Positions 2,561 to 10,567 of a stretch of DNA of 64,000 nt are shown one piece after another. A program made the position numbers and the translations under genes. The DNA comes from Actinomycetota bacterium (GTDB lineage: Bacteria > Actinomycetota > Acidimicrobiia > Acidimicrobiales > Ilumatobacteraceae). Below the pieces are notes generated by a model. It did no database searches. It was given only the letters and a program-made list of their open reading frames with translations, and had not been told where the DNA came from. The stretch spans positions 1 to 64,000 of the forward strand of contig JACQZZ010000035.1 of NCBI GenBank assembly GCA_016213625.1, written 5' to 3'. Each line of letters starts with the position of its first letter. Position 1 is the first letter of the stretch.

Positions 2561-4124
<1,564 letters not shown>

Positions 4125-8552: not shown

Positions 8553-9554
8553 TCAGTCGGTGGGTTCGGCGGAACCGTGGCGCACCATGGCGGTCATCCG
8601 CCGCAGGGTCTCGCTGTTGCCGAGCACCACCAACATGTCGCCGGCGCGCAGCGGCCCGTCGGCCTCGTGCCAGCGCCTGACCTCGGTGCCCTGGCGGAGA
8701 CCCAGAATGTGCAGAGCGGGCACTGCGGAGCCGAGCGCGCGTAGGTCCAGACCCTCCGCCTGCGCTCCTGCGCCCACCTCGACCTCCTCGACTCGCATGT
8801 CGGTGCCGGGGATGGCCAGGACGCCCAACACCTCGGCATCGAGTGCGGTGGCGGCCATGCTGGCGCCGACGCTCTCGTACACCGGCACCACGTGCGACGC
8901 CCCCGCGCGCATGAGGCGTTTGCTCCAACTCGAGTCGCTCACCCGGGCCACGATGCGCACGTCCGGAGCAATGGATCGCGCGGTGAGGGCGACCACCGCG
9001 TTGGACGGGTCGTCGAGTGTGGTGATGAGCGCAGCAGCGCGGTTGGCGCCCGCCGTGCGCAGCACCGTGCTGTCGCGAGCGTCGCCCTGCAGGAAGATCG
9101 CGCCGGCCGAGGTGACCGCGTCCTCCACCGTGTCGGTGGAGTCGATGACCACGCACGAACGTCCGGAGCGGATGGCGGCGTCGGCGGACGCCCGCCCGAC
9201 TCGCCCGAAGCCGACGATGATCACGTGGTCCTTCAGGTGCTCGCGCACTTTCGACCTCCTTCGTTCGCGGAGGGCGGCGGTGACGTCGCCCGAGAGGAAC
9301 AGCGCCGTCAACGACGCTGCGGAGTACACGAACACACCGAACCCGGCGAGGATGACGCCGATGGTCCACACGCGCCCGTCGGTGGTGAGCTCGTGCACCT
9401 CGCCATAGCCCACCTGGCCCATGGTGATGACCGACATGTACACGGCGTCGAACCAGCCCCAGTCTTCGATCACCACGTAACCGGCGCTGGCCACCGTGAT
9501 GGCGAGCAACGCCGCGATCGCCGGGCCGCGCAACCGCTCGAGCACCAACTTCAT
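8553..9554 (-). CDS. Potassium channel protein with RCK (TrkA-N/TrkA-C) domains
   Basis: The 333-residue protein has two membrane helices flanking a pore loop (residues about 11-90) with the K+ selectivity filter G49-Y50-G51 in TMGQVGYGE. This resembles MthK or Kch-type channels, except that the usual Thr before GYG is Val and the following Asp is Glu. A cytoplasmic RCK domain follows, with the NAD-type Rossmann motif GFGRVGR at 115-121, and a TrkA-C domain ends the protein (LRAGDMLVVLG). It should conduct K+ under ligand gating. The ATG at 9554 is preferred over an upstream extension lacking membrane character. It is divergent from the AhpD-like gene with only 23 bases between starts. Confidence 0.88.
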   Translation of the reverse strand: MKLVLERLRGPAIAALLAITVASAGYVVIEDWGWFDAVYMSVITMGQVGYGEVHELTTDGRVWTIGVILAGFGVFVYSAASLTALFLSGDVTAALRERRRSKVREHLKDHVIIVGFGRVGRASADAAIRSGRSCVVIDSTDTVEDAVTSAGAIFLQGDARDSTVLRTAGANRAAALITTLDDPSNAVVALTARSIAPDVRIVARVSDSSWSKRLMRAGASHVVPVYESVGASMAATALDAEVLGVLAIPGTDMRVEEVEVGAGAQAEGLDLRALGSAVPALHILGLRQGTEVRRWHEADGPLRAGDMLVVLGNSETLRRMTAMVRHGSAEPTD

Positions 9555-9577
9555 GTGCCCAGAGTAGGTTGACGGGC

Positions 9578-10567
9578 ATGACCAGGGCCGTACGCGACGA
9601 TCTGGCCGCGGCGCACCGGCGCTCGCTGGTGCACGTGGCCGCACCAGGGGCGCGGTTCACCGCCGCCCGTCGCGTGCAGATCGCCGAGGTGGCCATCGCC
9701 GCGTTCCTCGACCCCGAGCCGACCCCGCCCTGGGTGCGTCCGCACGGCGACCTGGCACTCGACGTGGCTCATCGCCTCGCCCGCCACGCCGGCACCATCA
9801 ACCTCGAGTGGTACGAGCAGATCGTCACGGAGGGGTTGCACCCGCTGGATTGGGTGGAGGTCGTCGGCATCGTGGTGTCGGCCGTGCCCCCCGTCGCCTT
9901 CGCTCGCGCCATCGGTGCGCCGCCCCCAGGGCTGCCCGCACCGCAGCCCGGTGACCCCACCGGCCACGAGGCAGCGGAACTGGCGCCAGCCCGCTTGAAC
10001 TTCGTCCCGGTGGCGGCCCCGGCCGATCGGATGCCCTCGGTGGTGCAGGCCTTGAGTGCCCTGCCCGACGAGTGGGACAACCTGTGGCAGCTCGCCGAGG
10101 CGCAGTACATGAGCGACCGGGCGATGGACGACCCGCTGTGGAACCGGGGCACCCTCAGCCGTCCGCAGATGGAGCTGGTCGCGGGGCGGCTGTCGCTCAT
10201 CCGCGAATGCTTCTTTTGAACGACGTCCCATGCAGGCATGCTCAGTTGGAGCAGCCAACAGGACGGCACCCCGGCCGACCTCGACGCGCTCGCGTCGGGT
10301 GACGGCGACGCCGGGCTGCCCCACGGTGCGCTGCTGATGGCGTTCGCCGAGGCGGCCGCGGGTGTCGACGACGCCGCGCTGGCGGAGGCCCGTGAAGCAC
10401 TCGTCGACGCCACGAGTGAGGCGTTCATGATCGACGCCGCGGCGGTGGTGGCCAACTTCGAGATGATGACCCGCGTGGCCGACGGCACGGGCGCACTCCA
10501 CGCCGCGGAGAGAGAAGCGAACGCCACGGCCCTCGCGACCCGCCTCGGGATGGTCGAACGGCCCTGA
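9578..10567 (+). CDS. AhpD-like (carboxymuconolactone decarboxylase family) protein, probable selenoprotein with UGA at codon 214
   Basis: Read as one frame, the gene encodes 329 residues with a single in-frame TGA at 10217-10219. Around it the sequence is E-C211-F-F-[UGA214]-T-T-S-H218-A-G-M-L, which matches the AhpD/CMD redox motif C-x-x-C-x-x-x-H with the second cysteine replaced by UGA. Upstream, SRPQMELVAGRLSLIREC is the helix that normally leads into the motif; downstream, DAAAVVANFEMMTRVADGTG is the usual C-terminal helix. Both halves therefore belong to one protein. AhpD-like selenoproteins are a known bacterial class. A SECIS-like hairpin follows at 10235-10256. Such proteins are disulfide or selenenylsulfide reductases or peroxidases. 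ATG 9578 is chosen; a TTG at 9569 is possible. The alternative reading is a nonsense mutation giving a 213-residue stub. No selA, selB, selC or selD lies in the window. Confidence 0.8.
10235..10256 (+). promoter_or_regulatory. Candidate bacterial SECIS element
   Basis: Directly downstream of the in-frame UGA, ggc (10235-10237) pairs with gcc (10254-10256) and tgctc (10239-10243) pairs with gagca (10249-10253). This leaves one bulged A on the 5' side and a five-base loop, agttg. There are 24 bases between the UGA and the loop. Known bacterial SECIS elements lie inside the coding sequence with the apical loop roughly 16-37 bases after UGA and a G in the first two loop positions, as seen here; several, like this one, carry a GU in the loop and a bulge below the upper stem. 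Confidence 0.65.

Follow-up and report, generated by a model that had tools for sequence, protein, structure and literature searches.

A UGA codon within an AhpD-related gene of an acidimicrobial genome is very probably read as selenocysteine

The forward-strand reading frame at 9578..10567 of the window (the whole stretch of DNA that was analysed, 64,000 nucleotides of the Ilumatobacteraceae assembly GCA_016213625.1) is interrupted by a TGA triplet, and we asked how this codon is read. The initial annotation had proposed that it specifies selenocysteine in place of the second redox cysteine of an AhpD-like protein. Translation of the frame confirmed that the TGA at 10217..10219 (+) is the only internal one and that it is codon 214, in the context RECFFUTTSHA. 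When this codon is read as selenocysteine (Sec214), as the frame and the homologue alignment indicate, the gene codes for 329 residues and finishes at the terminal TGA, 10565..10567. The ATG at 9578 is probably the start codon and is favoured over an upstream TTG (9569..9571, +), an alternative start that would add three residues. Translation with Table 11 gave a product of 213 aa from ATG 9578, or of 216 aa from TTG 9569, stopping at 10219 in both cases, and a separate ORF of 109 aa at 10238..10567. The expectation that automated annotation would split the gene into proteins of 213 aa and 109 aa is thus true of the Table 11 ORFs, but it may no longer apply where the NF041238 model is used, because the NCBI library already contains that model.

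Profile searches with NCBIfam revealed that the protein belongs to NF041238 (AhpD_rel_CFYUT, "alkylhydroperoxidase-related (seleno)protein"), with a score of 271.5 bits against a cut-off of 175 and a match running from residue 5 to residue 325 and over positions 1-352 of the 357 of the profile, that is, nearly full length. The motif agrees with that of NF041238; it reads CFFUT, with F for Y at one position of the name-giving CFYUT, while most relatives carry CFYU, and this is no difference in kind. The Pfam CMD model PF02627 gave 15.9 bits, under its cut-off of 23, and Pfam by itself would miss the gene; TIGR01926 gave 33.2 bits, under its cut-off of 81.8. Judged by the scores of these two models, the protein is a divergent relative and not a member. 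The sequence flanking the UGA had been called family-typical on both sides, which is strongly so by NF041238 only and weakly so by Pfam CMD. In a review of 2026 (PMC13188914), NF041238 is entered under "AhpD-related protein (hypothetical protein 1, Sargasso Sea metagenome)" with the motif CxxU, and the 2005 study of the Sargasso Sea selenoproteome described four sequences of hypothetical protein 1 (PMC1088965). The selenoprotein family was therefore already known; like its other members the protein of the window has a CxxU motif, one Sec and a SECIS element downstream, and the gene adds a member to this family and nothing new in kind. A search of the available literature found no actinobacterial or acidimicrobial account of the NF041238 family and no biochemistry of the family.

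An isolated stop within a reading frame is often an error or a sign of decay when the assembly is fragmented (this genome has 117 contigs, 4.5 Mb and a completeness of 92%), and the two ORFs might then be the broken halves of an AhpD-like pseudogene or the product of a sequencing error. The homologues argue against this. A sample of 298 genomes from the order to which the window belongs yielded matches in 72, and almost every strong match holds exactly one TGA. Alignment of 30 genes read from the order, that of the window included, showed TGA at the same codon in 29 and TGC in the remaining one. A second collection, partly overlapping with the order set, consisted of 77 loci found in GTDB genomes by a profile built on the region that precedes the UGA, and the aligned codon was TGA in 76 of them. 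Agreement of this extent in the two sets far exceeds what chance would give. The exception, L068, has AAC at this codon and loses the family motif just there (from ~3676); the DNA farther on is still SECIS-like in another frame, and a one-base frameshift is for that reason likely. Cysteine replaces selenocysteine in three homologues (L040, L050 and L051), so that position 214 is occupied by UGA or, in these three cases, by Cys, as a selenoprotein gene had been expected to show. The columns E199, C211, U/C214 and H218 are invariant across 18 aligned members and lie on both sides of the codon. Since dozens of independent genomes share this TGA, a base-call error can in practice be excluded, and decay or error as the source of the codon is extremely improbable.

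The relatives whose titles were available were mostly MAGs of Acidimicrobiia. The closest of them by title, L056-L058, matched at 79% over 213 residues and carry the label Acidimicrobiaceae or Actinomycetota; the labels of a few loci read Acidobacteria, Binatia, Gammaproteobacteria or other proteobacteria. In several genomes of the order the family is represented by two to four members, nearly all of them with UGA (for example G249, G132 and G230), and in G094 a UGA copy and a Cys copy were both present.

The genome of the window carries the four components of the selenocysteine machinery for which a search had been proposed. Genome profile searches placed selA (392 bits) next to selB (277 bits) on contig C35, selD (313 bits) on contig C71 and tRNA-Sec, with the anticodon TCA (UCA), on contig C116 (66 bits), all above the curated cut-offs; ARAGORN agreed on the tRNA. 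In the order sample selA was found in 57 of the 58 genomes with the TGA form and in 122 of the 240 without it (Fisher p ~1e-13, uncorrected for kinship). The one genome with the TGA form and no selA hit, G170, is an assembly 83% complete; G250, which carries the Cys form L050, gave no selA hit either. These results bear on a reading of UGA as Trp or Cys through a changed genetic code or a suppressor, which may draw on the three Cys homologues, since they indicate that Cys is tolerable at this position. Against it, the gene and many of its homologues end on TGA, which is thus a normal stop here, the tRNA with the TCA anticodon scores as tRNA-Sec and is present together with SelA, SelB and SelD, and the hairpin described below is conserved at the RNA level. 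We consider the insertion of another amino acid exceedingly unlikely.

The bacterial SECIS hairpin lies at 10235..10256 (+) and has the sequence GGC-A-UGCUC-AGUUG-GAGCA-GCC, with an outer stem at 10235-10237/10254-10256, a bulged A at 10238, an inner stem at 10239-10243/10249-10253 and the apical loop AGUUG at 10244-10248. Its geometry was as first described: 15 nt lie between the UGA and the hairpin, and 24 nt between the UGA and the 5-nt loop. The published bSECIS model (PMC13188914, Fig. 2) calls for a loop of 3-9 nt on an upper stem of 4-16 bp, a G in the first two loop positions followed by G or U, 16-37 nt from UGA to loop, and an MFE of -7.5 kcal/mol or lower. Comparison with these values indicated that the hairpin lies within all four: the 5-nt loop sits on an upper stem of 5 bp, the loop AGUUG has G at position 2 (GU or GG was found in 93/93 sequences), the spacing is 24 nt, and the hairpin is the MFE structure, at -12.2 kcal/mol, of the 45-nt segment that runs from the UGA. 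This folding energy is not beyond chance (z = -0.95; 36 of 200 shuffles folded equally well), and because it is unremarkable the significance of the hairpin rests on comparative evidence.

Alignment of the region downstream of the UGA revealed a stem-loop consensus, CUC-NGUNN-GAG, to which one or two further pairs are added. Codon 9 after the UGA, the loop codon, specifies Ser, Arg or Gly, yet it is NGU in 29 of 29 genes, where codon usage would lead one to expect 3.7; the codon that follows specifies six different residues and ends in G in 29 of 29, against 13.2 expected (kinship was ignored in both expectations). In the second collection the loop codon was NGU in 72 of the 76 UGA genes and CGG in the other four, and CGG, too, agrees with the published G[G|U] rule (PMC13188914). 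The four UGA members with CGG (L088, L101, L119 and L123) belong to differently labelled lineages. L040, one of the Cys homologues, also has CGG, which might suggest that its SECIS was lost; we dropped this reading, since four UGA genes have CGG too; among the Cys homologues the loop signature is clearly lost only in L050 and L051. Pair 27-33 joins the third base of codon 8 to that of codon 10; of 93 distinct sequences, 87 have C-G here and 6 have U-A, with no mismatch. Marine acidimicrobials and one genome with the label proteobacterium are among the six U-A cases; with U-A present in at least two groups, the change probably arose or moved at least twice. A formal covariation count on 29 sequences was mildly above shuffled alignments (35 of 500 reached the same count). 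By these alignments the hairpin is conserved beneath the amino-acid level, that is, as RNA.

The two Table 11 ORFs might also reflect two genes or a regulated stop, with a functional 213-aa product and a UGA that mainly terminates, and in any selenoprotein gene the UGA can partly terminate. The AhpD motif, however, spans the codon, with Cys211 (10208..10210, +), the first residue of C-x-x-U and the sole cysteine of the protein, before it and the invariant His218 (10229..10231, +) after it, as had been noted when the UGA was assigned to the second Cys position of this motif (C211-x-x-U214-x-x-x-H218). The Cys homologues read straight through, and the predicted catalytic domain takes in helices encoded downstream of the codon. 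A UGA acting mainly as a true stop is accordingly very unlikely, and we return to one readthrough product, whose fold was predicted as a whole.

The AlphaFold2 model of this product was confident (pLDDT 94.7, pTM 0.93). It comprises a helical, cysteine-free N-terminal AhpD-like half (about residues 1-112; 9578..9913, +) and a C-terminal half (about residues 137-310; 9986..10507, +), which is the predicted AhpD/CMD-like catalytic half. Plain Foldseek searches returned nothing under E 0.001. The C-terminal half matched AhpD-like chains with VIA Z values of 10-12.5, and by profile search it matched 6k40 with E 1.7e-11. The whole chain best matched Sestrin2 (VIA Z 16.6, rmsd 3.1 over 226 residues, model residues 1-305, identity 10%), which gave no match in sequence searches. 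Helical proteins can reach high Z values through shared arrangement alone; for the C-terminal half, the relation to AhpD is not drawn from Z alone, because the sequence match to 6k40 supports it too. The model and the invariant residues together gave the helical fold with E...C-x-x-C/U-x-x-x-H that characterises the AhpD superfamily. On the strength of this confident model, the single chain would consist of two AhpD-like domains in a Sestrin2-like arrangement, and its C-terminal half would carry the active site.

When compared with the peroxidase-related enzymes of TIGR01926, 2PRR and 6K40, which belong to the AhpD superfamily and have CxxC, the C-terminal half aligns (VIA Z ~12) and shares C-x-x-C/U-x-x-x-H, while the protein of the window differs in having Sec for the second Cys and an additional AhpD-like N-terminal half. 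Sestrin2 is a eukaryotic fused AhpD-like pseudo-dimer (PMC4674687) and likewise pairs two AhpD-like domains in one chain. In contrast, its active site is N-terminal and keeps only the first Cys (PMC4674687), whereas in the colinear alignment the active site of our protein is C-terminal; the N-terminal catalytic Cys of Sestrins is absent here, and Cys211 and Sec214 both lie in the C-terminal half. Sestrins are further defined by an acidic hinge of the DDYDY type that replaces the motif in the C-terminal domain (PMC11429811), and in our protein the CxxU motif is still present in that half, between helices. Fused AhpD dimers of bacteria, with no cysteine in the N-terminal half, are on record from Corynebacterium and Comamonas (PMC11429811), and the architecture is therefore not new. 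Compared by description and not by sequence, these dimers resemble our protein in having CxxC/U in the C-terminal half and an N-terminal half without cysteines, and differ in that theirs is Cys where Sec is found here. That the family represents a selenium-dependent bacterial counterpart of Sestrin, with the cysteine-free half serving the Sec-bearing half as a sensing or docking module, is an unlikely but conceivable reading; if it were true, peroxide reduction and regulation would be united in one chain.

Analysis of the gene neighbourhood showed a divergent potassium-channel gene (Ion_trans_2 and TrkA_N) at 8587-9554 (-), with 23 nt between the two start codons. So short a gap can hardly hold a promoter; the transcript is likely to be leaderless or to start from a promoter within the neighbouring gene. 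Downstream lies an MMPL-type transporter gene and, farther off, genes of amino-acid metabolism. Within 3-kb flanks, only the closest relatives share the channel and MMPL genes (L058, and for MMPL also L060), and the neighbouring genes point to no substrate or reductant. In G232, of the same genus, the selenoprotein gene begins 6 nt past the ilvC stop and behind an ilvB-like gene (L052, 5148-6818), a conceivable tie to branched-chain amino acid synthesis. In the window ilvC (3096-4124) lies ~5.4 kb upstream of the selenoprotein gene, with other genes between.

The in-frame TGA and its conservation, the machinery, the conservation of the hairpin as RNA, the family membership and the predicted fold are computational observations; selenocysteine decoding of UGA 10217..10219 is supported, and the proposal outlived every refuting test that the initial annotation had named for it. 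We are nearly certain that the gene codes for a selenoprotein of the NF041238 family in which SelB and the SECIS element decode the UGA, with a predicted fused AhpD-like fold and, most probably, AhpD-type thiol/selenol chemistry. What we infer from this is that Sec is inserted in vivo, and how the enzyme would act, on what substrate and with what reductant. SelB with Sec-tRNA(Sec) would decode the UGA under the direction of the hairpin, with its loop 24 nt downstream, and readthrough would run on to the terminal TGA (10565). In the C-terminal half, C211-x-x-U214-x-x-x-H218 and Glu199 (10172..10174, +), an invariant alignment column, would form the active site. By analogy with AhpD, a thiol/selenol oxidoreductase cycle of the AhpD type is most likely: one of C211 and U214 may attack an organic hydroperoxide or an oxidised partner, a C211-U214 selenenylsulfide would form, and a dithiol reductant would reset the pair. 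Glu199 and His218 are the probable proton-relay residues, a role suggested by AhpD, 2PRR and Sestrin2 (PMC4674687).

Taken in this way, the UGA very probably inserts selenocysteine into the active site of an enzyme predicted to handle peroxides. The locus confirms a real recoding event at which plain ORF callers cut the gene in two, in a selenoprotein family that is poorly studied and is common in one order, probably of the Acidimicrobiia, the UGA form being present in 58 of the 298 genomes sampled. With its Sec forms, natural Cys forms, clear SECIS element and confident model, the NF041238 family offers a target for asking why selenocysteine is kept in an AhpD-like site.
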